Below, in pieces: positions 16,792 to 31,726 of a stretch of 48,341 nt of DNA. The notes beneath the pieces were generated by a model. That model ran no database searches. It saw only the letters and a program-made list of their open reading frames with translations, and was not told where the DNA came from. A program made the position numbers and the translations under genes. Within the stretch, counting starts at the first letter, position 1. Every line of letters begins with the position of its first letter. This stretch comes from an uncultured Microcaldota archaeon (GTDB taxonomy: Archaea; Micrarchaeota; Micrarchaeia; Anstonellales; Bilamarchaeaceae), in assembly GCA_903835385.1 (NCBI GenBank), contig CAILMQ010000001.1, positions 1 through 48,341 of the forward strand. Reading direction: 5' to 3'.

Positions 16792-17673
16792 ATGCTTTTC
16801 ATGCCAAAAAAGCTCAAATCCAAGATATGGGACGCCTGGGTATGGGTAGTCTCAGGCGCGCTCCATGTTTTTTATCTGCTTGTCAAATCAGCCTTCGGGC
16901 TGGCGGGCTTCATCCTTTCCAAGGCCTTCTCCAAGGCGTACAAGGCAGGGAAGCAGAAGGCCCGGGCAAAGTACGGCGAAGCCGTCTACCAATCACTCAC
17001 AGTCGAAAAAAACCTGGCCGGAGACATGGCCGGATTCGAGAACAGGCTTTCGTCCAAAAGCACCGTGGGACTGATACTCGGGGCGCGCGGAAGCGGGAAA
17101 TCCGCACTCGGGATGCGCATCCTGGAGAACATTGCCGCAAAGGGCAGGAAGGTGTGCGCCATGGGTTTCGACGAGTCCGCGCTCCCGGAGTGGATAATGC
17201 CCGTGGATGGCGTGGATGGGATACCGAACGGCCGTTTCGTGCTCGTGGACGAAGGCGGCATACTCTTCTCTTCAAGAGAGTCGCAGTCCTCGGGGAACAA
17301 ATTGCTCTCATCCCTTCTCCTGGTGGCCAGGCACAAGGACGTGTCCGTGCTCTTCATCTCCCAGAACTCGGCCAATCTCGAGATAAACAGCATAAGGCAG
17401 GCGGATTACCTTCTGATGAGGAAGCCCTCCCTCCTGCAAAAGGACTTCGAGCGCAAAAAAATCGGCCAGATCTACGATGGAATCGATTTCGGAGCCCTTC
17501 CGGACGGCGGAAGGTATTCAACTTACGTATATTCAGACGGGTTCAGGGGTTTTGTGGCGAATGAACTTCCTGGTTTTTGGAGTACCAAAGCAAGCAAATC
17601 GTTTGCGCAATTAAAACTGAAGAAGGAAGGGAAAAGCGAAACGAAAAAGAGAACGAATCAAAAGGGCAAGTAA
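16792..17673 (+). CDS. membrane-anchored Zot-like P-loop ATPase
   Basis: 293 residues. A hydrophobic helix at about 15-45 is followed by an ATPase core: Walker A G-A-R-G-S-G-K-S (97-104), Walker B F-V-L-V-D-E-G-G (149-156) and a sensor-like V-L-F-I-S-Q-N-S. The layout, with a short core and an H-K-D-V-S-V-L-F-I-S-Q strand, resembles the Zot / FtsK-HerA-related ATPases used in DNA or filament translocation. The C-terminus is a K/E/T-rich tail. It could power a membrane machine such as the six-protein operon 2.4 kb downstream, but that link is speculation. The start may be the ATG at 16801. Confidence 0.6.
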   Translation: MLFMPKKLKSKIWDAWVWVVSGALHVFYLLVKSAFGLAGFILSKAFSKAYKAGKQKARAKYGEAVYQSLTVEKNLAGDMAGFENRLSSKSTVGLILGARGSGKSALGMRILENIAAKGRKVCAMGFDESALPEWIMPVDGVDGIPNGRFVLVDEGGILFSSRESQSSGNKLLSSLLLVARHKDVSVLFISQNSANLEINSIRQADYLLMRKPSLLQKDFERKKIGQIYDGIDFGALPDGGRYSTYVYSDGFRGFVANELPGFWSTKASKSFAQLKLKKEGKSETKKRTNQKGK

Positions 17674-20007: not shown

Positions 20008-20050
20008 TGTGACCAACCGGAAATGACCTGTTGCCCTTTTCTATAGGGAG

Positions 20051-20083
20051 CATTTTTAATCATAATTACAGATAGGAAGGAGC
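20051..20083 (+). promoter_or_regulatory. promoter and ribosome-binding site of the six-gene membrane operon
   Basis: A TATA-like tttttaatcataat (20053-20066) is followed by AGGAAGGAG just before the ATG at 20084. The gap to aspS is 76 bp, so this region also carries the divergent aspS promoter. Confidence 0.5.
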
Positions 20084-21343
20084 ATGGATTTGACCCTGCC
20101 ACTGCTCCTTTTCCTGCCAGATACCGCCAAAACCATGATAGGGGTCGCGCTCACGCTCGGCGCCATAATAGCCGCGCTGTTCTATATGCTGGCCTACACG
20201 CTCCAGCACCCGCCTCTTTCCACCATGGCCAAGGAGGAGCTCTCGGCGCTCCTCTTCAGCGTGATAATAATAATGGCGTGGATATCCTCGGCCAGCGTGA
20301 TAGACCCCATTGCAAGGGGGCTGGTCGCGCCCGCCGGGTTCCAGGTGCCGGACCACCCCGCGTCCGAGCTGTTCTCCTCCCATGTGACGCTGGCCATCGC
20401 CTCCACCGAAATCATGTTCAACAAGCTCAGGGAGATGTACGTCTCCATGTACCTCTACGAGGCGCTCATAGGGTTCCTGTCCACCATGAGCTTCCCCATA
20501 GGCTCGCCCATAGCCGGGCCCGCCATAATCTCGTTCTCACTGATGCCATTCGACGGCCTCGGCCTGCTGAGCAATGCCCACACCATAGTGGTCGAGGCCA
20601 TAGGCACCCTGATGACCTTCATATGGGCAAAGCAGTTCGTGCTCATATTCTGCAGGGACGCCCTGCCGGTGATATTCCTCCCCCTGGGCCTGGTTTTCAG
20701 GGCCATACCGTTCCTCAGGAAAACCGGCTCGTCCATAATCTCCATATGCTTCGCCGGATACTTCGTGCTGCCCTTCGCGGTGCTGTTCTCCAACTTCCTG
20801 GTATTCGACGTCTACAAGCCCGTGGACTTCGTCTATGCGCCGGAGCACCTGAGCATATACAAGTCGGACGTGAGCGAAACCAGTGCGCAGGGCGAGATAA
20901 CCGGCGCAAGGGCGAATGCAACCGACAGTATGACGAAGCTGTTCTCCACGCCCTCTGCCGTACAGTCGGCGTCCACCACCCAGGCATGCGCGGGCAACGC
21001 GGTCGTGCAGATGTTCTGCTCCGCGGGCAATATCATGATCGGCATAGGCAGGGGCATAGTAGATTTCGCCGGCACGGTGTGGAGCATCTGGAAGTTCATG
21101 ATGGGCATGACCGGCGATTTCGCGTCCTCGTTCTTCTCCGGAGCGAACCAGTTCATGCCCTCCTCCGCAACGGCGGGCATGTTCTTCTTCATAATAGACT
21201 CCGTGGTCGCACACAGCCAGTTCCTGGTGATTGTGATGGTTTCCACGGTGATAGAGATAATATTCACCATAACCATGTACAGGAACATAGCGCTGATAAT
21301 CGGGGGGGAGCTTGAAATCGCCGGGCTCTCCAAGATAATCTGA
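20084..21343 (+). CDS. polytopic membrane protein, six-paralogue operon, gene 1
   Basis: 419 residues with roughly eight hydrophobic helices. The N-terminal hairpin (about 17-75) has loop Y-M-L-A-Y-T-L followed by A-K-E-E-L. A central L-G-L-V-F-R-A-I-P-F-L-R-K-T-G precedes a hydrophobic helix ending F-V-L-P-F. A long, Ser/Thr/Ala-rich polar loop (about 245-330, with three Cys) follows, then terminal helices and the ending I-G-G-E-L-E-I-A-G-L-S-K-I-I. All three marks recur in the following genes. Loose resemblance to VirB6/TrbL/CedA conjugation-type channels is inferred from topology only. The next gene begins 8 nt later. Confidence 0.75.
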   Translation: MDLTLPLLLFLPDTAKTMIGVALTLGAIIAALFYMLAYTLQHPPLSTMAKEELSALLFSVIIIMAWISSASVIDPIARGLVAPAGFQVPDHPASELFSSHVTLAIASTEIMFNKLREMYVSMYLYEALIGFLSTMSFPIGSPIAGPAIISFSLMPFDGLGLLSNAHTIVVEAIGTLMTFIWAKQFVLIFCRDALPVIFLPLGLVFRAIPFLRKTGSSIISICFAGYFVLPFAVLFSNFLVFDVYKPVDFVYAPEHLSIYKSDVSETSAQGEITGARANATDSMTKLFSTPSAVQSASTTQACAGNAVVQMFCSAGNIMIGIGRGIVDFAGTVWSIWKFMMGMTGDFASSFFSGANQFMPSSATAGMFFFIIDSVVAHSQFLVIVMVSTVIEIIFTITMYRNIALIIGGELEIAGLSKII

Positions 21344-21351
21344 GGTTGGAT

Positions 21352-22905
21352 ATGGGCAAACTGCCGTTCGTCCTTGTGCTGCTGGCGCTTGCCGCCCTTG
21401 CGCAGGCGCAGCCAGTGCCGACCGCCGCGCCGCAGGCGCCCGCATCCGTTTTCAGCTCCCAGCTGGACATAGCCATGGCAATCATAGGCGCGATAATGGC
21501 GGCCCTCATAGCTCTTGCCGCGGCGGTCTATGCCCTTGGCACGCTTTTCGGGGCCGAGACCCAGGCGCGGGCCAGCACCTGGGCCAAGTCCATGCTCATG
21601 GCCGTGGGAGTGGCCGCCGTGCTGCTGCTCATGCTATTCATCTTCCTGCCCAATTACCAGCTTGCCGCGTCCCCAGACGTCATGAACAAGTGGGTTGATA
21701 CGCTTCTGAGCACTGCCCAGACGGCGTTCAGCGTGCTGGTAATAGCGCTCGTGGTGCTCGCCGCCGCCGCCTACGCGCTCGGCCAGGCCTCGGGCGCGGA
21801 GACCCGCGCGAGGGCTACGGTGTGGGCCACGGGCCTGCTGGCAGGGGCGCTCGTATGCGCGGTGATATACATCCTGGTGTTCATGATATTCCCCCAGTTC
21901 GGGGACACCCTGCTCGCAGGCACCATCCTTGAGCCTTACAAGAAAATCGTGATAGACATCGCCTTCTTCGTGGCCATCATAATACTGATCACCTATCTCA
22001 TGTCCCGCGTGTTCGGAAATCCGGAATGGGAGGCCTATCTGAACGTGGAGCTCAGCAACCTGGCGGGCTCCTTCCTGGTGCTGATCTTCGTGCTGGGGTT
22101 CTTTGCCGCGGGCACCGCATTCTCCGTCATGGCCACCGGGACGCCCAGCCCGCCGGCGGCGGCGCTCGCGTTCATGCGCGATACCATCGCCAGCAACATG
22201 CTCTCGGGGCTGTACGACATATTCAGGATACAGACCTGCACTTCCATGCTCAGCACGTTCAGCAGGAGAATCGGCGAAGCCGTGCTCACCAATGTGATAA
22301 AGGTGTTCCCCGGCATCGACGTCTTCGTGCAGATAACCAATGTGCTCGGCTACGGGCTCGTGTCCATCTACGCCAGCGTCTCTGCCCAGATGACATTGCT
22401 GAACCTGGTGGACGCCCTGATGGTGCCGTTCCTCCTTCCGGCGGGGCTGGTACTGCGGTTCTTCCCGCCCACCCGCGATGCCAGCTCGTTCCTCATCGCG
22501 TTCGCGTTCGCATTCCAGTTCGTTTTCCCGCTGCTCTACGTGGTAAACTCCATGGTGCTGAGCGACCTCCAGGTCCAGGTCTATGACAAGGCGAGGTCCG
22601 AGCTCATCATACAGTCCCTGTGCGGGCCGTTCAAGTTCGGAGTCGCCGGAGTGCTGTTCCAGCCGCTCTCGAACGGGCTCAACCGCATACCGCTGTTCAG
22701 TTCACTCCCCGGGATGAACGTGGTGTTCCAGACCCTGCTGTCAGAGCCCACGCTCAACCTGCTCCCCATGGCGGAATTCGTGCCCATAATGAAGTCCCTG
22801 GCCCTGCTGTCGCTGTTCGGCCTGTTCGTGCCCGCATTCTCCATTACCATGACCATAGCATCCATAAATGCAATAACGAAATTCCTGACCGCGAAGGTGT
22901 CATGA
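21352..22905 (+). CDS. polytopic membrane protein with three tandem hairpins, gene 2
   Basis: 517 residues. A signal peptide (about 1-20, ending A-Q-A-Q-P) is followed by two nearly duplicated two-helix hairpins with loops Y-A-L-G-T-L-F-G-A-E-T-Q-A-R-A (from residue 60) and Y-A-L-G-Q-A-S-G-A-E-T-R-A-R-A (nt 21772 on). A third, diverged hairpin has loop Y-L-M-S-R-V-F and N-V-E-L. The rest matches its neighbours: L-V-L-R-F-F-P-P-T-R-D-A-S and a helix ending F-V-F-P-L-L-Y. It lacks the G-G-x-x-E-I-x-G-L ending. The extra hairpins look like small secretion-pilin (VirB2/TrbC-like) units fused in tandem (inference). The ATG at 21352 is preferred to the in-frame TTG at 21346. Confidence 0.75.
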   Translation: MGKLPFVLVLLALAALAQAQPVPTAAPQAPASVFSSQLDIAMAIIGAIMAALIALAAAVYALGTLFGAETQARASTWAKSMLMAVGVAAVLLLMLFIFLPNYQLAASPDVMNKWVDTLLSTAQTAFSVLVIALVVLAAAAYALGQASGAETRARATVWATGLLAGALVCAVIYILVFMIFPQFGDTLLAGTILEPYKKIVIDIAFFVAIIILITYLMSRVFGNPEWEAYLNVELSNLAGSFLVLIFVLGFFAAGTAFSVMATGTPSPPAAALAFMRDTIASNMLSGLYDIFRIQTCTSMLSTFSRRIGEAVLTNVIKVFPGIDVFVQITNVLGYGLVSIYASVSAQMTLLNLVDALMVPFLLPAGLVLRFFPPTRDASSFLIAFAFAFQFVFPLLYVVNSMVLSDLQVQVYDKARSELIIQSLCGPFKFGVAGVLFQPLSNGLNRIPLFSSLPGMNVVFQTLLSEPTLNLLPMAEFVPIMKSLALLSLFGLFVPAFSITMTIASINAITKFLTAKVS

Positions 22906-24266
22906 TGGCTGCCACTGCGCTCGACATATGGTATTCCGATCCCGCCGTGGGCTGGATGGCCGTCGCCGGGATCGCGCTGGGCTTCGCCATCACGCTCGCC
23001 GCCCTCGTCTACATGCTCGGCGCCGCGCTAATGAACGACAGGATGAAGGGCTGGGCGAAGATGGAGCTGGTGGAGGCCTTCTACTCCGCGGTGATAATCG
23101 CGCTGGTCGCCACGCCCAGTGTCGGCGCCCTGATGCTGCTCGACTCCGCGGTCCAGGGAGGGCTGTTCCTGGGCGGGCAGCCCATGACGGTGTACATACC
23201 GGAACAGGGCATCTCGCTTCCGCTGTGCGGGCCCCAGATAGCACTGCCCGCCACTTCGATCTACCATGACATACCCGCCTGCCACATCCGGCTCGGCATC
23301 TGGTACCTGCATTCCCTGTTCAAGGAGGCGCAGGACCTGGCCTACAAGGACTACCTTTCCTACATCTACACCTCGACCGCGGCGGATTTCACGATAAATT
23401 TCGAGTTCATAACCCAGGCCTCGGGCTTCTTCAGCATCACGCCATGGAGGGGATTCTTCACGGTGGGCAACACCATAAAGGCGATGGTGTTCGACTACCT
23501 CATCAAGCTCATGATACTCACGAAGTTCCAGGAGATAATGCTGTCTTTCGTGGCCAGGGCGCTGTTCCCCGCCCTGTTCGTCTCCGGCGCCGTGTTGAGG
23601 ACGTTCACGTTCAGCAGGCGGCTGGGCGGCCTGCTGCTCGCCTCGGCGCTCGCCCTCTACTACGTGTTCCCGGCGTTCTACTCGCTGGGGGGCCTCGTGG
23701 TGTACAACATCAAGCAGTATACCATCCATAACAATGCCGAGTTCGCCGCGACATGCGCGAGTTTGCTTGCCGGAAAGGCGGCCTGCTACGACCCGCCCAT
23801 CACGAACTTCATGTACGTGGCCGGAGAGATACCCGTGCCCGGAGGCGGCCTGGACACGGTCGATGCGCAGCAGCAGTACGCCAACCTCGGGATGCAGACC
23901 ATGGAGCAGCGCCTCGGAACCAGCGAGAGCAGTTCCGGAGGGCTGAAGGCGCTCGATTCGCAGAACGGCCAGCCCGGGGCGGATTTCGCGAAGTCGGTGC
24001 CCCTGGCGAACCGCCAGGCGGCGCTGGCCAATGCCAGCAACAAGACCCAGGAATGGTTCAAGAAGGTGTCGTCCGTATCCAAGATTGACATCTCGGTGTT
24101 CAGCACATATGCGCCCGGAGGGCCGGTGGACGCGCTCTCGCGCATCGCGTTCTTCTCCACGTTCTTCGGGCTCTTCGGCATACTCGCGACCATAGCGACC
24201 ATACGGTCCATTTCCGGGACCTTGGGAGGGGACATAGAAATCGCGGGGCTCACGCACCTGATATGA
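22905..24266 (+). CDS. polytopic membrane protein, gene 3
   Basis: 453 residues, about seven hydrophobic helices. Hairpin loop Y-M-L-G-A-A-L-M-N-D-R-M-K-G-W-A-K-M-E-L lies at about 37-56. A large polar segment with two Cys follows (about 105-140). The central V-L-R-T-F-T-F-S-R-R-L-G-G precedes a helix ending Y-V-F-P-A-F-Y. A roughly 120-residue polar loop, rich in Gln/Ser/Ala, precedes the last helix. It ends L-G-G-D-I-E-I-A-G-L-T-H-L-I. Start: GGTG at 22896-22899 suits the ATG at 22905; the ATG at 22902 overlaps the previous stop. Translation is coupled. Confidence 0.75.
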   Translation: MAATALDIWYSDPAVGWMAVAGIALGFAITLAALVYMLGAALMNDRMKGWAKMELVEAFYSAVIIALVATPSVGALMLLDSAVQGGLFLGGQPMTVYIPEQGISLPLCGPQIALPATSIYHDIPACHIRLGIWYLHSLFKEAQDLAYKDYLSYIYTSTAADFTINFEFITQASGFFSITPWRGFFTVGNTIKAMVFDYLIKLMILTKFQEIMLSFVARALFPALFVSGAVLRTFTFSRRLGGLLLASALALYYVFPAFYSLGGLVVYNIKQYTIHNNAEFAATCASLLAGKAACYDPPITNFMYVAGEIPVPGGGLDTVDAQQQYANLGMQTMEQRLGTSESSSGGLKALDSQNGQPGADFAKSVPLANRQAALANASNKTQEWFKKVSSVSKIDISVFSTYAPGGPVDALSRIAFFSTFFGLFGILATIATIRSISGTLGGDIEIAGLTHLI

Positions 24267-24283
24267 CGGGGACGGATGGAAGA

Positions 24284-25519
24284 ATGGACAAAAAGGCAAC
24301 TGTGTTCCTGGCGGCTGTTCTGCTTGTGGCGCTCGCAGGCGCCGCGCTCGCGGACAGCTTCACGGACATGCTGAACACGCAGAACCAGACCATACAGGTG
24401 CAAGGGAACGCGTTTGTCCAGGCCGCCAAGACCGCCGGAGGCACCATACCCAAGACATTCACCTCCGTGTTCGAGGCCTTCGACCCGGGCTTCTGCGGCC
24501 ATGACATGTTCTCGGCGGACCCGGCATGGGTGGAGGCCACGCTCATCGCGCTCCTGGCGCTGGGATTCGCCATCGCGCTGGTCTACCTGCTCGGCCAGCT
24601 CATGCAGATGCCGGGCCTGCTCGCCCTTGCCAAGGACGAGGCGGTCCAGATGCTCTACACCATCCTCAGGGTGGTGTTCATATTCGGCGTGCTTTTCGCG
24701 GCGCAAACCTGGTTCACGGTGCGGACGAACGGAGTCACGGACCCCGTATACTCCATAACCAGCACGGACCCGCTCAACCAGGGCGCCCCACCGGCCATCA
24801 TAGACTCGGCCATGGCATTCTGCCGCTCCCTCATCGTGGAGATGATAACCAACTATTCCAACCTGGTCATGTACAACATGGTGATACACACGGTCTACTC
24901 GTCCACCATGTGGTTCGGCATCACCTGGCGCACCATGTACTCCTTCAACCTGGGCCCGGTGCTCAAGCCCCTCATCGACATCGTCGGCATGGCGCTGCAG
25001 TACCTCGGCCTCGGCCTGGGCGAGTGGATGTTCCACCTGCTGGTGCTCTGCATGATAAAGAAATGGACCTGGACGCTGTTCATACCGATATCCATATTCC
25101 TGCGGGCGCTGCCGCAGACCCGCACCGCGGGGGAGGCGCTGTTCGCGATAACGTTCGCGCTGGCGCTCATATACCCGTTCATGTTCCTTGCGACCTACGA
25201 GACCCACAAGCTCATGAGTGCCAACCTTGTCGACAGCAGCCAGGCGCTGCAGTCGTTCGTGCAGAAATCGGGCATACTCGCGGTCGCCGGCTCGATGCTG
25301 CTGATTGTGTTCCTGGCAGCCGGCGTGTTCTTCCCGTTCTTCGTGGGCGCGGGCCTGAACGTGGCCATGGAGATGGTCAAGAGCTCCGTCTATTACGTCG
25401 TCATACTGTCCCTGCTGCTGCCCTTCATCAACATATTCGTGACACTCACGGCGGCGAGGGAGTTCGCGAAGTTCTTTAACGTGGACGTGTCATTCATGTC
25501 GTTCATAAAAGTGATATAG
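24284..25519 (+). CDS. polytopic membrane protein with signal peptide, gene 4
   Basis: 411 residues from the ATG at 24284 (418 from 24263). An N-terminal signal peptide (about 1-24, L-A-G-A-A-L-A-D) precedes a roughly 60-residue polar domain. The hairpin loop is Y-L-L-G-Q-L-M-Q ... A-K-D-E-A. A long helical middle contains several Trp and Tyr. Then comes I-F-L-R-A-L-P-Q-T-R-T-A-G and a helix ending I-Y-P-F. The C-terminus (N-V-D-V-S-F-M-S-F-I-K-V-I) keeps the pattern only loosely and lacks the Gly pair. It is the most diverged member at its end. It overlaps gene 3 at its longer start. Confidence 0.72.
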   Translation: MDKKATVFLAAVLLVALAGAALADSFTDMLNTQNQTIQVQGNAFVQAAKTAGGTIPKTFTSVFEAFDPGFCGHDMFSADPAWVEATLIALLALGFAIALVYLLGQLMQMPGLLALAKDEAVQMLYTILRVVFIFGVLFAAQTWFTVRTNGVTDPVYSITSTDPLNQGAPPAIIDSAMAFCRSLIVEMITNYSNLVMYNMVIHTVYSSTMWFGITWRTMYSFNLGPVLKPLIDIVGMALQYLGLGLGEWMFHLLVLCMIKKWTWTLFIPISIFLRALPQTRTAGEALFAITFALALIYPFMFLATYETHKLMSANLVDSSQALQSFVQKSGILAVAGSMLLIVFLAAGVFFPFFVGAGLNVAMEMVKSSVYYVVILSLLLPFINIFVTLTAAREFAKFFNVDVSFMSFIKVI

Positions 25520-25528
25520 GCTGATGCC

Positions 25529-26611
25529 ATGCTGAGTGCGGACCAGATTGTGAACAACGCCTCCTGCCTGTCTTCAGCCGGAGGCCTGCAGGAGTTCCTC
25601 TGCGGCTGGCAGGGCACAATGGGGTTGGCGCTCACGACCTCGGCGGTGTTCCTAGCGGCATTCTACATAATATCCGTGCTCTTCAGGAACGAGGGGCTCA
25701 AGGGCTTCGTGAAGCTCGAGCTCTCCGAGCTGTTCATAACCGTGGTGCTCGTGATGATACTCATTGGCGCCATGGGCGCGGTCTCGGACCTGCAGTTCGG
25801 CGGCCTGCTCTCGCAGAACCAGATACCCGGCATCGCGCCAACCGCAAGCATCTACAACGTCACCCAGGGCTACTTCGAGAGGGTCGGCACGGACATGGGC
25901 CAGTGGCTGGAGATGGACTATGTGCTCGGGGTCGTGGTGGACTCGTTCGCATCCGTGCAATCCCAGCCCAGGCCCCTGGGGGTGGGGATCGTGGCCCCGC
26001 CGTTCGCGGGCCTCGCCTCGCCCATCAAGCAGCTGCTCTACAGCATGTCCAATGCGCTCGCGGTGGCGTTCGTGATCAACTACGCGCAGCTCTACGTATT
26101 CCTGTTCGTGCTCCAGGGCTCGCTGCGCTACTACATACCGCTGGGCATCATACTGCGCTCCCTGACCCCCACGCGGCGCATAGGCGGCGCGCTCATAGGG
26201 CTCGGAGTGAGCTTCCTGTTCGTGTTCCCGGCCCTCTACTCGGCGAACTACCTGATGTTCTACGGCGACGCGGGGCCCATGGAGACGTTCCGCTCGTTCA
26301 CCGCCAGCCGCTTCGACATGAGCCAGGGGGTGGGCGGCGCCATAAAAAGCTTCTATGCCGGGAAGGCCAGCATGGGCGCCATAGACATGGTGGTCTCGCT
26401 GATAGGAGACATCGGGACCATGTTCTCGTCGCTGATAGGCGAGGTCTTCACGCTCGCCATGGTGCTGCCAGTATCAGTGATAGGCAGGGCATTCGTCATC
26501 GGTTTCCTGATGCCGGTATTTAACATCCTGCTCATGGTGCAGGTGACCACGTCGCTCAGCAAGAGCATGGGGGAGGAGGTCGACATCTCCACGTTGACCA
26601 GGATGGTGTAG
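25529..26611 (+). CDS. polytopic membrane protein, gene 5
   Basis: 360 residues, about seven hydrophobic helices. Hairpin loop Y-I-I-S-V-L-F-R-N-E-G-L-K-G-F-V-K-L-E-L is near 46-65. The central I-L-R-S-L-T-P-T-R-R-I-G-G precedes a helix ending F-V-F-P-A-L-Y. It ends M-G-E-E-V-D-I-S-T-L-T-R-M-V. It has the shortest polar loop of the six. It begins 9 nt after gene 4 and ends 4 nt before gene 6. Two Cys near the N-terminus could be disulphide-bonded outside the cell. Confidence 0.72.
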   Translation: MLSADQIVNNASCLSSAGGLQEFLCGWQGTMGLALTTSAVFLAAFYIISVLFRNEGLKGFVKLELSELFITVVLVMILIGAMGAVSDLQFGGLLSQNQIPGIAPTASIYNVTQGYFERVGTDMGQWLEMDYVLGVVVDSFASVQSQPRPLGVGIVAPPFAGLASPIKQLLYSMSNALAVAFVINYAQLYVFLFVLQGSLRYYIPLGIILRSLTPTRRIGGALIGLGVSFLFVFPALYSANYLMFYGDAGPMETFRSFTASRFDMSQGVGGAIKSFYAGKASMGAIDMVVSLIGDIGTMFSSLIGEVFTLAMVLPVSVIGRAFVIGFLMPVFNILLMVQVTTSLSKSMGEEVDISTLTRMV

Positions 26612-26615
26612 CCCA

Positions 26616-27713
26616 ATGGCATTCCTAGATTTAATCTCGCAGGATTGGGGCTGGCGGACCATCGCCGTGCTCGCCGCGGCAGGCTCGGTGCTGGTCTCGG
26701 TGGCGCTCATCATGCTCGCCCGGCTCTTCGACATGAAGAGCCTCGAGCAGAGCGCGAAAACGGAATTCGTCTATGCCGCATCCACGGTGTTCATAGTGCT
26801 CTTCAGCGTCGGGATAATCGGGTTCGGGGACACCGTGCTCACGAAAATCACCGCGGAGATGTATATCAACACCATAACCGCCTGCCCCGCGGACCAGGCG
26901 GCCATTCCCGGCACGCCCTGCTACCAGCTCCAGCACACGACCTTCCGCCTGAACGTGGATACGATGCCCGACATGATGATGCTCTACATGGACGCCCCTG
27001 CCAAATGCAGCCAGCAGTTCCTGGATTACATGTACTACGCGGCCATTCCCATAGACGCCTGCGCCTCCGTATACATGGAAATCTTTATGTCCGAGCAGCT
27101 CACGTGCTTCGGCCTCAAGTGGGCGTCCGAGCGCATCACCAACGGGGTCCAGATACTCACGTTCTACATGTTCGCCTACTACCTTATCGGCCATGCGATG
27201 ATGTTCGTCAAGTACTATGCGGGCTTTTTCTTCGCGCTCGGCGTCGCGCTGCGCGCCTTCCCCCCCAGCAGGGGCGGCGGCGCCTATCTCATGGCGCTGT
27301 CGATCGGGCTGTATTTCGTGCTGCCCTTCACTTACGTGTTGATAACCACGATGTCCCTTTCCTCCGCACAGTCCAGCTTCCTGACCGCGACCGGCGTGAC
27401 CCAGACCGCCTCCGGCACGACCATACAATACGCATGCAACACGCCCGCCGTGGGCGACTTGAGCGGCCTCGGCTGCGGCACCGGCTCCCTGGCCAAGCAG
27501 GGGGAACTCATGGGCTGGCTCCAGGCGAGCAAGACCAATATCACGGATTTCTTCAGTTTCCAGCTGCCCGAGCTGACCAAGCACCTGGCGTCGGTGATGT
27601 GCATATTCCCGCTCATCGCCTTCACGATATTCTTCACCTTCGTGCTCAACACCACCAGCCTCTTCGGCGGCAACATACCCGAGATCGGGCGCGGCCTCGT
27701 AAGGCTGATATGA
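26616..27713 (+). CDS. polytopic membrane protein, gene 6
   Basis: 365 residues. The hairpin loop has I-M-L-A-R-L-F-D-M ... A-K-T-E-F (about 32-51). An extracytoplasmic Cys-rich section follows (C-P-A-D ... C-Y-Q-L, A-K-C-S, D-A-C-A, T-C-F; about 88-170). The central V-A-L-R-A-F-P-P-S-R-G-G-G leads into a helix ending F-V-L-P-F-T-Y. The ending is F-G-G-N-I-P-E-I-G-R-G-L-V-R-L-I. It is the last gene of the run; the PIN gene downstream has its own TATA-like element. Confidence 0.72.
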   Translation: MAFLDLISQDWGWRTIAVLAAAGSVLVSVALIMLARLFDMKSLEQSAKTEFVYAASTVFIVLFSVGIIGFGDTVLTKITAEMYINTITACPADQAAIPGTPCYQLQHTTFRLNVDTMPDMMMLYMDAPAKCSQQFLDYMYYAAIPIDACASVYMEIFMSEQLTCFGLKWASERITNGVQILTFYMFAYYLIGHAMMFVKYYAGFFFALGVALRAFPPSRGGGAYLMALSIGLYFVLPFTYVLITTMSLSSAQSSFLTATGVTQTASGTTIQYACNTPAVGDLSGLGCGTGSLAKQGELMGWLQASKTNITDFFSFQLPELTKHLASVMCIFPLIAFTIFFTFVLNTTSLFGGNIPEIGRGLVRLI

Positions 27714-27774
27714 GCGCTTGCAGGAGAGTGAGCCGAACGCAATCTTTATATCTCTCATCCTCCCATTCCTCCTC

Positions 27775-28347
27775 ATGCCAACCGCCAGATTCGTGATTGA
27801 TACCTCGCTTTTCGTGAATCCCTACGCAAGGGGGAAATTCGGCAAGGACCCCCCGTCGGCGGTCACGGGATTCATCAGGATGGCGAGGCGGCTTGATGCG
27901 CAGTTCTTCATCCCGCCCTCGGTGTTCAACGAGCTGAAAAACTTCATCGGCGCGAAATCGGACGAGCTCGCGCTCCACGTGAAGAAGCGCGCGCCCAACA
28001 CGTTCGCGCTCCACCTGCCGGCCGCGGTGTTCTACGATTTCATAGACGACGTCCGCTCGCGCGTGAACAAGGGGTTGCGCCTGGCCGAGGAGTTCGCAAA
28101 GGACAACCATCCGGACAACGATGCCAAGCTCGCGAAGCTGCGGGACAAGTACCGCGAGAGCATGAGGACCGGCATAATAGACAGCAAGGAGGATTTGGAG
28201 CTCGTGCTTCTTGCAAAGGAGCTGGAAGCCACGCTGGTTACCTCTGACGAGGGCGTGATAAAGTTCGCCAACAAGATAGGGTGTGAATGCCTGGAAGGCG
28301 ACAAGTTCCACGCGCTGCTCAAGACGCTGGGGAAAAAGAAGAAATGA
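27775..28347 (+). CDS. PIN-domain RNA ligase partner protein
   Basis: 190 residues. The PIN fold begins F-V-I-D-T-S-L-F-V (Asp9) and contains the later acidic positions D-S-K-E-D-L-E-L and T-S-D-E-G-V. Length and sequence match the archaeal family annotated as RNA ligase partner (UPF0278). The RNA ligase gene lies opposite, 221 bp away, supporting the call. A TATA-like ctttatatc at 27744-27752 puts the start of transcription at or near the ATG. It presumably trims or cleaves RNA acted on by the ligase (inference). Confidence 0.85.
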   Translation: MPTARFVIDTSLFVNPYARGKFGKDPPSAVTGFIRMARRLDAQFFIPPSVFNELKNFIGAKSDELALHVKKRAPNTFALHLPAAVFYDFIDDVRSRVNKGLRLAEEFAKDNHPDNDAKLAKLRDKYRESMRTGIIDSKEDLELVLLAKELEATLVTSDEGVIKFANKIGCECLEGDKFHALLKTLGKKKK

Positions 28348-28568: not shown

Positions 28569-29639
28569 TTAGTCTGTAACAGATTTGCCCGTCAGCGCAT
28601 CGTGCATCTTCTTCGTCGTCTTCCTGTACGTCTTGCTGAAGCGGATGCGCTTCCCGCCTTTCTCGTCGCGGTCGGATATGACCTCCAGCTTCACCTCCTT
28701 GGACATGTGGCGGTGTATCGTGTCCCAGGTCCTGGGGTCCTTTATCAGGATTTCGAACTCCTCCTCCGCGCCCCCGCCGTCCCCGACCATCCCAATCCCC
28801 CGGAGAAGGCCGGAATAGAACGCCTCGCCCAGGCGCCTCGCGTACTCCCTCCGGTCCAGGCCGAACTCCCTTAAGAACATTCCCGAGCGGAACACGCGCT
28901 GCACGTAGAATCCCAAAGGCATGTCGAACATCACGGGCGAGCATCTCCCTATATCCTCTATGTCAGCGTTCGGGGTCACGAACTTCACCGCGGCCTTCCT
29001 GTCCAGGGTCTTTATCACCATGCCCTCCTTGTTGGCCTTGTTCAGCGAGAGCGCGAGATTGCGGATTTTCTTGATGTCGGACGTCGCGTATTTTCCGAGT
29101 TGGGGGACGCTTTCAATCCCGTATTTTTTCAACATGGCATAGCGTTCCTCGCAGGGAAGGTAATTGCCGGTCCCGTCGTCTATGTCGAAAACGAAAAGCT
29201 TCACGTCGAATTTCGGCGTCGGCGAGGTGTATGGCGTGTTGCCAATCATCTCCCCGCAGAGTATACGTTCAGGATAATCCGCGAAAAACCCCTCCAGCCC
29301 GAGCCCCCTCGCCTTCTCGGTCGAGAACGCGTCTATGTAGCCCCCTCTGGAAAACGCGAAAATAGCGCCCTCCACCTTCGCCACGCGGAGGTTGAAGCCG
29401 TCTATCTTCTCCTCTATGCACACTTCCCCGCCAGGAATGTTGCGGCCGAGCCCCTTCTCAAGTGTGAAAATCCTGGGGATGTGCTCGTAGCCAAGGATGA
29501 CCCTGTCCCTGGTCACGACCGTGCCGCGCATGATTTTGCCGTGGTTCTCCCTGAAGCGCACGTATTCCATGCCCTCCCTGAGCCTCTCGGCCCTGCCCCT
29601 TTTTATGGCATCGAGAACCTGCTGCCTGGTTATGCTCAT
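28569..29639 (-). CDS. ATP-dependent RNA ligase, Rnl3 / Pab1020 family
   Basis: 356 residues from the ATG at 29639. Nucleotidyltransferase motif I is E-E-K-I-D-G-F-N-L-R with Lys78 as the adenylated lysine. Motif III-like L-F-V-F-D-I-D-D, motif IV K-E-G-M-V-I-K and motif V A-V-K-F-V follow in order. The archaeal family joins or circularises RNA ends. The ATG at 29639 is used because the upstream small gene ends at 29641; an in-frame ATG at 29654 overlaps that gene further. The C-terminal domain is of normal size for the family. Confidence 0.9.
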   Translation of the reverse strand: MSITRQQVLDAIKRGRAERLREGMEYVRFRENHGKIMRGTVVTRDRVILGYEHIPRIFTLEKGLGRNIPGGEVCIEEKIDGFNLRVAKVEGAIFAFSRGGYIDAFSTEKARGLGLEGFFADYPERILCGEMIGNTPYTSPTPKFDVKLFVFDIDDGTGNYLPCEERYAMLKKYGIESVPQLGKYATSDIKKIRNLALSLNKANKEGMVIKTLDRKAAVKFVTPNADIEDIGRCSPVMFDMPLGFYVQRVFRSGMFLREFGLDRREYARRLGEAFYSGLLRGIGMVGDGGGAEEEFEILIKDPRTWDTIHRHMSKEVKLEVISDRDEKGGKRIRFSKTYRKTTKKMHDALTGKSVTD

Positions 29640-29640
29640 G

Positions 29641-29820
29641 TCAGTCCCCTTCAAGCCCTTTCAGCTTCGCCTTCGCCCTGCCCCTGAGCACGCCGTCAAC
29701 CATGACCTCCACGCGCTTTCCCTCGGGGTAGACCCAGAGCTTGTAGAACCCCCTGTGCGTCTTCACGAGCAGCTCCACCAGGCCGTCGCTCTTCTCCTCC
29801 ACATAGGCCTTGAACCACAT
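29641..29820 (-). CDS. small basic protein co-transcribed with the RNA ligase
   Basis: 59 residues, starting M-W-F-K-A-Y-V-E-E-K and ending R-A-K-A-K-L-K-G-L-E-G-D. Its stop codon abuts the ligase ATG at 29639, so translation is probably coupled. The sequence has a beta-like pattern (L-V-E-L-L-V-K, Y-K-L-W-V-Y-P) with many basic residues, which suits RNA binding. No family recognised. Low GC-skew oddities or frame defects are not seen, and the reading frame is clean over its whole length. Confidence 0.6.
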   Translation of the reverse strand: MWFKAYVEEKSDGLVELLVKTHRGFYKLWVYPEGKRVEVMVDGVLRGRAKAKLKGLEGD

Positions 29821-30004: not shown

Positions 30005-31726
30005 TCATCTTCTTGAGAACGCGAGCGCGCCCGCAGCCGCAAACGCGAGTATGAACGCGCTGCCGCAGCATCCCCCGCCAGTGCCGCCCGGGGCGTTCAC
30101 CCCTGCGGGCGGAGTGTTCCCGAAGTAATACGCGAGTTCGTTGGAATCAGCCGCGGCAACATCATCCGTGGTCGGAGGGGAGCCGGGCACGAGCGCCAGC
30201 TTCTGGCCCTTGCCGACATAAACCGAAGTGTCCGCGGCGTCCGCGAGCGCTGCGGATACCGTGCCTTCCATGACCACGAGGCTCTCGGGCTGCGACGCGT
30301 CCTCGGGCACAGCCACCTTGAAATGCGTGCCGCGCACCACGTAATGGCCCTGCCTGGTGAGCACCTCGTAATCGTGATTGACCTCCACCTCCACCGCGCC
30401 GTAATCCACGTATATCGCCTGCTTCCACATGCGCACGCGCGCAGGCGCCTTGATGACGACCATGGTGCCGTCCGTATATGTGAGCCACAGGGAGCCCGTC
30501 TGCGTGAGCTGGAACGTGTCGCCTTCCTGTATGGACCTGGAAGTGCCGGTGCATTCCATGGGCTGCCCGTTGCTGAAGACCACCACCCCTGCCTGGCACC
30601 TGTACTGAAGCGTTTCCAGCTGGGGTGCGGGATATACAATCACGTTCGTGGAGCCGAGCGTCTTTCCCCGCTTATCCGCGGACGCGGTTGCCGTTATCCG
30701 GACGGGCTTGCCCTGCGCTATCCTGACGTCCTTGTAAGTGAAAGTGCCGCCCGCCTGGTTGTACGCCGCCGGCTGGGGATAATCAAGCCCGGCGTTCACC
30801 AGCACCTCCTCCACCCCGTACTGCTGGCCGCTGGTGACAGTGCCGCTGACGTTGATGAAAGCCACGCCCGATGTTCCGGTGTCAATGGAGGTGCCATCCG
30901 CCGGGCTCGTGATGCTCACCTCTACCGGCGAGACCGTCTGGCAGCCGTCCATGGTGGCAAGGCAGCCCCACGGGCATTCCTTTTCCGAATACGCACACGT
31001 GTAAGCTGTGCCGGACTCCACGCACGTGCCGTCGTAGCTGAGCGTGGGCACGCCGTTCTTAACCTCGCATTTCTTTCCGCACGTCACTCCGCTGCACGGC
31101 CCTGCCGGCTGTTGCGGCGGCTGGGCCGGAGGCTGCTGCGGCTGGGTGCCCGAGCCCCAGCTGCAGGGGAACCCGGACCCGTAGGCCTGCTTCTTGAAAT
31201 CGTTCATGCATTGCCTTAGCGACGGCGGAACCGAGTCGCAGTTCTCCTGCGGCGTGAGCCAGCTCATGGCCCCGACCTGCGTCAGGTATCCCTTGGAGCA
31301 CTCCACGTTGCAGTCGTCAAGCTTTTTTTCGTCCCCGGCCTGTGGCATGGCGGTGCCGGTGAAGCGGCAGTACGAATTGAAGCCCATCTTTATCGCGGTG
31401 CCGCCCGCCACCTCCTGCTGGAGCGACGCGTCGCACGCGCCGTCAAGGGTGTCGTATTCGCCGTATCCCGCGTTCGGGTCCCCGCAGGTCACGACCTCGC
31501 TGTCAAATCCCGGCGTCATGTTCTGGCAGCAGTCCTTCATGCAATTGGACACGAGGTACACCCCGTAGGGGTAATCGCAGATATCGCTTCCGGAAGCGAA
31601 GCAGTACGCCTTGTTGGACGCGGGGTAGTACGAGCTGCCGTCGAACAGGCAGTTGTATGCCGCCGCGCTGCCAAAGAGCAGCAGCGCCAGAAACAATCCG
31701 GGCAGGACGCGAAGGAGGATATTCAT
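30005..31726 (-). CDS. secreted Cys-rich protein with FecR-like domain and MYXO-CTERM-like tail
   Basis: 573 residues. A signal peptide (about 1-23) is followed by a Cys-rich region (about 24-270) with many C-C and C-x-x-C groups and a Pro/Gln linker near 196-212. Then comes an Ig-like stretch (about 273-360) and a FecR-like domain (about 395-500: G-S-L-W-L-T-Y-T-D-G ... Y-G-A-V-E-V-E-V ... V-V-R-G-T-H-F-K-V). It ends with a Gly-rich G-G-G-C-C-G-S, a hydrophobic helix and Arg-Arg, the layout of a C-terminal sorting signal. Likely surface-anchored. Function unknown. Confidence 0.72.
   Translation of the reverse strand: MNILLRVLPGLFLALLLFGSAAAYNCLFDGSSYYPASNKAYCFASGSDICDYPYGVYLVSNCMKDCCQNMTPGFDSEVVTCGDPNAGYGEYDTLDGACDASLQQEVAGGTAIKMGFNSYCRFTGTAMPQAGDEKKLDDCNVECSKGYLTQVGAMSWLTPQENCDSVPPSLRQCMNDFKKQAYGSGFPCSWGSGTQPQQPPAQPPQQPAGPCSGVTCGKKCEVKNGVPTLSYDGTCVESGTAYTCAYSEKECPWGCLATMDGCQTVSPVEVSITSPADGTSIDTGTSGVAFINVSGTVTSGQQYGVEEVLVNAGLDYPQPAAYNQAGGTFTYKDVRIAQGKPVRITATASADKRGKTLGSTNVIVYPAPQLETLQYRCQAGVVVFSNGQPMECTGTSRSIQEGDTFQLTQTGSLWLTYTDGTMVVIKAPARVRMWKQAIYVDYGAVEVEVNHDYEVLTRQGHYVVRGTHFKVAVPEDASQPESLVVMEGTVSAALADAADTSVYVGKGQKLALVPGSPPTTDDVAAADSNELAYYFGNTPPAGVNAPGGTGGGCCGSAFILAFAAAGALAFSRR

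Follow-up and report, generated by a model that had tools for sequence, protein, structure and literature searches.

The window, i.e., the whole stretch of 48,341 nucleotides (nt) analysed here, is a chromosomal contig (CAILMQ010000001.1) of a Micrarchaeota archaeon; nearly every relative that has a name in the genome collection is a 'Candidatus Micrarchaeota'. Six adjacent same-strand open reading frames (ORFs), A1 to A6, occupy positions 20084-27713 (+) with spacings of -4 to +9 nt, and encode paralogous polytopic membrane proteins. Probably these proteins are the membrane channel of a type IV secretion-like machine that is encoded on the chromosome and inherited vertically, and whose make-up is closest to that of the archaeal Ced/Ted systems for DNA import. 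The paralogs keep a fixed order, each belongs to an ancient ortholog group, and they are linked to or co-occur with VirB2-like pilins, a protein with two transmembrane (TM) segments termed V3, an ATPase termed VB4, and a TM-anchored extracellular protein. The parts of the operon are as follows, with lengths in amino acids (aa) and the support for each position's own clade in the tree of the shared core.

20084..21343, +, A1, putative channel paralog 1, 419 aa (own clade, 98/87)
21346..22905, +, A2, 519 aa, two pilin-like domains fused to putative channel paralog 2, core from ~21925 (own clade, 100/96)
21460..21654, +, VirB2/TrbC-like pilin domain 1 in A2, aa 40-103 (hhalign E 2.4e-11 against free-standing micrarchaeal pilins)
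21625..21900, +, VirB2/TrbC-like pilin domain 2 in A2, aa 114-185 (hhalign E 1.5e-13)
22902..24266, +, A3, putative channel paralog 3, 454 aa (own clade, 99/97)
24263..25519, +, A4, putative channel paralog 4, 418 aa (own clade, 91/84)
25529..26611, +, A5, putative channel paralog 5, 360 aa (own clade, 99/94)
26616..27713, +, A6, putative channel paralog 6, 365 aa (own clade, 99/95)

Six paralogs with a common core

An initial annotation of this DNA had described six consecutive genes, separated by less than 10 nt or overlapping, whose products share one plan. The spacing is as described, and all-against-all comparison bears out the common plan. Between single proteins of the window, blastp detects A4-A5 (E 2e-9), A1-A5 (4e-9), A3-A5 (1e-8), A2-A6 (2e-6) and A4-A6 (1e-4), and phmmer matches are also significant. 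With profiles built from 34-38 orthologs per position, all 15 pairs are significant in hhalign (E 6.1e-25 to 1.1e-43), a similarity that goes beyond hydrophobicity.

The shared core combines a two-helix hairpin at the N-terminus with a central motif, LRxFPxTRxxG, followed by a helix that ends in a near-invariant proline. The central motif, LRx[FLI]xx[TSL]Rxx[GS], had been assigned to all six proteins; it is strict in A2-A6, where at most 0.05% of shuffled sequences per protein contain it, and only a relaxed form occurs in A1. The hairpin motif is likewise strict in part of the set (A1, A3, A4, and A5) and not strict in A2 and A6, whereas the terminal motif, thought to be present in at least four proteins, is strict in three only (A1, A3, and A5). 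In 68 members of the other five positions, conservation reaches 90% or more at E52, G202, R206, R212, G215, and P230 (A1 numbering). In A3, which likely starts at the ATG at 22902 (the listed ORF begins earlier), C109, C127 and a terminal GGDxEIAGLTxLI are conserved. The AlphaFold2 model of A5 (mean predicted local distance difference test score 84.5, predicted template modelling score 0.78) is all-helical, with very long helices. We note that some A paralogs of other genomes carry very large insertions or fusions, as in loci L136 (Ca. Micrarchaeota SKW163), L131, and L109 (A3 of 1346 aa; A5 of 1073, 838 or 605 aa).

A2 has additional helices at its N-terminus that the annotation passed over; they are the two VirB2-like pilin domains listed above, both within the N-terminal 190 residues. 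A search of the window's own genome places the first at 21460-21639 (E 1.2e-4), and a free-standing pilin used as query against that whole genome finds A2 as its top match, at 21625-21885 (E 6e-6). One free pilin is encoded in the same genome, on contig C48 (G000:C48). Two related genera have the pilin module fused to A1, not to A2. Fusions of this sort provide direct evidence for an association of channel and pilin.

Genes linked to the six paralogs

In Ca. Fermentimicrarchaeum limneticum (L121) and other lineages, the genes read in the same direction in the order pilins, A genes, V3a, V3b, VB4, small genes, cc260 and Ig800. The upstream small proteins are hydrophobic and of ~118 aa, V3a and V3b are two proteins of ~275 aa with two TM segments each, VB4 is an ATPase of ~510 aa, cc260 is coiled-coil/winged-helix-like, and Ig800 is a TM-anchored protein of ~800 aa. 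A VirB4/CedB-type ATPase, for which the annotation had proposed a search in related genomes, thus adjoins the operon in other Micrarchaeota (loci L120-L123, L125, L128, L131, L133, L138, and L190-L192; single-gene loci L063, L195, and L196), and pilin genes adjoin the A genes in part of these ATPase-linked loci. Divergent operon neighbours of ~900-1000 aa were also considered as ATPases and were set aside, most being leucyl-tRNA synthetase and the others TM-anchored or secreted.

The identity of VB4 follows from its Pfam matches (AAA_10 4e-13, DUF87 6e-13, TraG P-loop 6e-10) and from NCBIfam, where CedB (1e-21), VirB4 CD1110 (3e-21) and CedD (6e-21) rank ahead of HerA (4e-14). Its matches among plasmids include VirB4 CD1110 and TraC ATPases, and most of the records, 351 of 394, are classed as conjugative. 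Among 350,542 PDB chains, the V3 model best matches 7o41_A, from the R388 inner membrane complex, with a probability of 0.99 but an E of 0.022. This fold match, together with the two-TM start, suggests that V3 may be a VirB3-plus-VirB4-N-domain protein; a PDB sequence search with the V3 profile gave no match. The free small proteins match TrbC (1e-4) and T4SS_pilin (2e-4) in Pfam.

The remaining parts in the window's own genome

That no VirB4-type ATPase lies in the operon, as the annotation stated, is true of the window and not of the genome, in which VB4 is encoded on contig C40 (G000:C40:14812-16329; 60% identical to the protein of Fermentimicrarchaeum, E 1e-216). It is flanked in the known order by V3, c121, cc260, and Ig800 (G000:C40:13902-20452; L173 7903-14453), where cc260 (a coiled coil, possibly with a winged-helix end) and the ~850-aa TM-anchored Ig800 belong to no Pfam family. 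Because the VB4 set lies on contig C40, the machine is split into two loci in the taxonomic order of the window.

The same genome holds a second complete six-gene operon, A1'-A6' (G000:C47:33840-41337; L051 3841-11338). It is flanked by a divergent 1005-aa protein with a signal peptide and TM segment (FDTP type) and, downstream, by a 1611-aa secreted Cys-rich protein, and no ATPase is seen beside it. FDTP-type neighbours accompany the six-gene operon in other lineages as well.

Order, age and co-occurrence across the phylum

Among 196 genomes drawn from across the phylum Micrarchaeota, 177 have A5-type genes and 185 have VB4 at E <= 1e-5. All six genes are intact in 54 of 72 named loci. In 46 of the 54, best hits to profiles built without use of position give exactly the order 1-2-3-4-5-6; the eight others are very divergent. 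The median gap in six-gene loci is 1 nt. The operon order is therefore conserved in related genomes, a point the annotation had put up for checking. In an unrooted tree of the shared core (86 sequences, a first version of which included one long-branched locus), every position forms its own clade, with supports from 91/84 to 100/96, and the seven groups, i.e., the six positions and a single-gene type, need six label changes, which is the minimum (shuffled mean 56.6). Because each position forms its own clade, the six copies predate the radiation of the sampled micrarchaeal lineages, and the order A1-A6 is retained since the duplications. A viral origin was considered and rejected, as no relative was confirmed among the 2.9 million viral contigs of IMG/VR.

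A strong VB4 match (E below 1e-80) accompanies A5-type genes in 170 of 177 genomes and occurs in 3 of the 19 genomes that lack them (Fisher p 1.8e-15, a value that overstates the number of independent evolutionary events, as the counts are over related genomes). Families that lack A5-type genes also lack strong VB4, and vice versa. Whole lineages (families f15, f17, f19, f23, and most of f20) have neither channel genes nor a strong VB4 match, which suggests loss of the machine, or absence before its gain.

Three genomes of one genus (G073, G075, and G167) have a minimal operon composed of one A gene, V3, VB4, and an Ig-type protein, preceded in G073 by a pilin gene. In the unrooted tree, none of the six paralog clades includes this single A gene. 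The simplest reading is that the single-gene operon resembles the state before duplication; alternatively, it arose via loss of five copies.

Surroundings of the operon

The operon lies in a neighbourhood of split RNA polymerase genes, L30e, a NusA-like KH protein, SurE, and AspS. Two further features flank it directly:

20017..20083, no strand, probable promoter region, the 67-bp divergent intergenic stretch between aspS (minus strand) and the operon (ORF coordinates)
27718..28347, +, PIN_5-domain ribonuclease gene, start uncertain, co-directional and 3' of A6 (Pfam PIN_5 3e-50)

In relatives too, aspS or leuS divergently adjoins A1. The PIN_5 gene adjoins A6 in many relatives and is not beside the operon in other clades; it is a conserved neighbour within the order, and the ribonuclease is probably not part of the machine. 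Near it, also beside the operon in the order, is a conserved gene on the minus strand (28569-29654), which we provisionally take from its sequence to be RNA-ligase-like. A large Cys-rich surface protein with a signal peptide, a terminal hydrophobic helix and, by eye, a FecR-like C-terminal region is encoded at 30005-31726. At 16792-17673, a gene for a P-loop ATPase with weak Zot-like similarity and N-terminal hydrophobic stretches ends the RNA polymerase operon; it was rejected as the motor, since its matches are weak and no homolog was seen beside the six-gene operons of relatives.

Likeness to VirB6 and CedA

The proposal of a repeatedly duplicated VirB6/TrbL/CedA-type channel, made in the initial annotation, gains support from the pilins upstream, the VirB3/VirB4-N-like protein and VirB4/CedB-type ATPase downstream, and the single-channel operons. 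Several results weigh against it. With E up to 0.1 allowed, none of 115 family members matches a TrbL/VirB6 model of Pfam, and Pfam and NCBIfam scans of A1-A6 give nothing above cut-off, VirB6 and TrbL included. A PDB sequence search with the A5 profile finds no match, and a Foldseek search of the A5 model against PDB finds none at E <= 0.001; chain 8rtd_H of the R388 type IV secretion system (T4SS), whose chain identity was not checked, ranks 30 (E 2.6, TM-score 0.40 by target). The VirB6-like protein of Sulfolobus conjugative plasmids has no profile match to the A proteins, the Pfam matches of the pilins to TrbC and T4SS_pilin lie below curated cut-offs, the ATPase set is unlinked to the A genes in the window's order, and the co-occurrence is affected by the relatedness noted above. 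In CedA and CedA1, the N-terminal region is similar to the system's own pilin (PMC9905601), and the Sulfolobus plasmid pilin matches the beginning of the VirB6-like protein encoded with it (E 1e-5), the same likeness as published for CedA. The corresponding micrarchaeal comparison is weak, both for the joint A hairpins (hhalign E 2e-4, probability 45%, reversed control 0.08) and for A4 (E 7e-5, probability 64%).

As there is no Pfam model or significant PDB match, the VirB6 label rests on genetic context, i.e., A genes encoded with VirB4-type ATPase and pilin genes, and on the weak hairpin-pilin similarity. For these reasons we propose that the A proteins may work like VirB6 and CedA, and do not call them members of that family.

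A proposed machine and its alternatives

By analogy with Ced/Ted and R388 (PMC9905601, PMC11868833, PMC9259494), VB4 together with V3 would form the motor beneath the membrane and the A proteins the pore within it. Duplication of one ancestral VirB6/CedA-like gene, like that of the single-gene lineage, may have given rise to the six subunits, which would together make up a single hetero-oligomeric pore, perhaps with each of them fixed in its place above the VirB4 ring. That the six are non-exchangeable suggests such a pore, in which every subunit has a defined place. The pilins, partly fused to A2, would assemble, outside the pore, into a short pilus or an extension of the channel, and the ATPase would move the substrate, most likely DNA from other cells, through pore and pilus. 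More specifically, and as a tentative proposal that we hold at somewhat less than even chances, the pore could be a hetero-hexamer of six different VirB6-like subunits at fixed positions over a hexameric VirB4-type motor, derived from one gene duplicated before the radiation of the phylum. Such a pore would be a novel solution to the 6:5 symmetry mismatch of bacterial T4SSs, and would join MCM and CCT among paralog-diversified rings as an example from the membrane.

Import of DNA is our first choice of direction because the motor is closest to CedB and CedD, and host-directed secretion is the second. Relaxase PF03432, the only relaxase family searched, is in none of 40 relatives, and coupling protein PF02534 is in three of the 40, all as weak partial matches, with none in the window's own genome and thus no convincing type IV coupling protein (T4CP). 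This result argues against ordinary conjugation and describes a trait common to Ced/Ted. The same machine could run in the other direction, as an exporter of protein (or DNA) used in host-cell contact, a possibility of some weight although we consider it the less probable one. Micrarchaeota are largely host-dependent, which would suit an exporter, and secreted proteins adjoin related operons, i.e., the 1611-aa Cys-rich and FDTP proteins at the second operon of this genome and proteins of 1200-2300 aa beside L092, L097, L104, L113, L117, and L135. The other lineage known for tandem VirB6 expansion, Rickettsia, is host-associated, and an exporter role has been proposed for VirB4-linked giant proteins of nanohaloarchaea (PMC10266531) and for the Patescibacteria T4SS (PMC12102498). 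The affinity of the ATPase to DNA-import systems speaks for the opposite direction, whereas the missing T4CP homolog, also a point against export, is tempered by protein-exporting T4SSs that likewise lack one (PMC12102498).

The fusion of pilin domains to A2 or A1 would also fit a role of the six proteins as the assembly base of a VirB2-type pilus that serves attachment without substrate transfer, and VirB6 of R388 has been proposed as a base for pilus growth (PMC9259494). We regard this as unlikely, since the known VirB4/CedB machines transport substrates and a simple platform needs no six-fold divergence. Most improbable of all is that the A proteins are unrelated to type IV secretion, e.g., subunits of a transporter or redox complex that lie near T4SS genes by chance in some lineages: the lack of a direct sequence or fold match to VirB6 would fit, but the A genes repeatedly share operons with pilin, V3, and VB4 in distant lineages, the single-gene type included, and the pilin fusions and phylum-wide co-occurrence point the same way. 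The machine occurs in the majority of micrarchaeal genomes, even in very reduced ones, and is therefore probably central to DNA exchange or to dealings with the host.

Comparison with known systems

The micrarchaeal set resembles Ced/Ted of Thermoproteota (CedA, CedA1, CedB, CedD, CedE; TedA-C) in being chromosomal and without relaxase, and in combining a VirB2-like pilin, a polytopic channel and a VirB4/HerA-type ATPase. It differs in its six ancient ordered channel paralogs, not one or two, in its separate V3, and in its phylum, and the A proteins show no recognizable sequence similarity to CedA. We note that the CedA paralog CedE has been proposed to form a hetero-oligomer with CedA (PMC11868833), a smaller-scale parallel to the arrangement envisaged here. 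The Sulfolobus plasmids pNOB8 and pKEF9 also encode a DUF87 ATPase, a small pilin-like protein, a polytopic membrane protein, and a large TM-anchored extracellular protein, but they are mobile and have one channel gene, and their VirB6-like, Ig-type, VirB3-like, and pilin proteins show no similarity to the micrarchaeal profiles.

Among bacterial systems, R388 provides the top fold match of V3 and has a VirB4-type ATPase domain like that of VB4. A homopentamer of identical VirB6 stands there over a six-fold VirB4/VirB3 complex (PMC9259494), whereas six different subunits are found here and VirB4 would be split into V3 and VB4. The T4SS of Patescibacteria is similarly widespread and relaxase-poor, belongs to a lineage of ultra-small, host-dependent organisms, and has VirB2 arrays (PMC12102498); in that case the pilins are expanded and not the channel, and VirB6 is found by a VirB6 profile in part of the genomes.

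The expanded VirB6 array has a precedent in the rvh T4SS of Rickettsia, where five paralogs (rvhB6a-e) of ~80% amino-acid divergence, each a conserved ortholog, were judged ancestral, and where the genes are also split over separate clusters (PMC2653234). The annotation's candidate 'undescribed membrane machine' is thus not without parallel as a tandem array, although we found no type IV secretion-like machine described in Micrarchaeota in the open-access literature. The rvh system is bacterial, with clear TrbL/VirB6 domains, a coupling protein, and outer-membrane parts, whereas the micrarchaeal array is six-fold and phylum-wide, with pilin fusions and without a TrbL match. The contrast between one gene (G073, G075, and G167) and six offers a natural test of why a symmetric pore would become a ring of fixed non-identical subunits. 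What is new relative to all of these systems is the spread through an archaeal phylum, the six ordered ortholog groups, the separate V3/VB4 pair, the pilin fusions, and the living single-gene counterpart.

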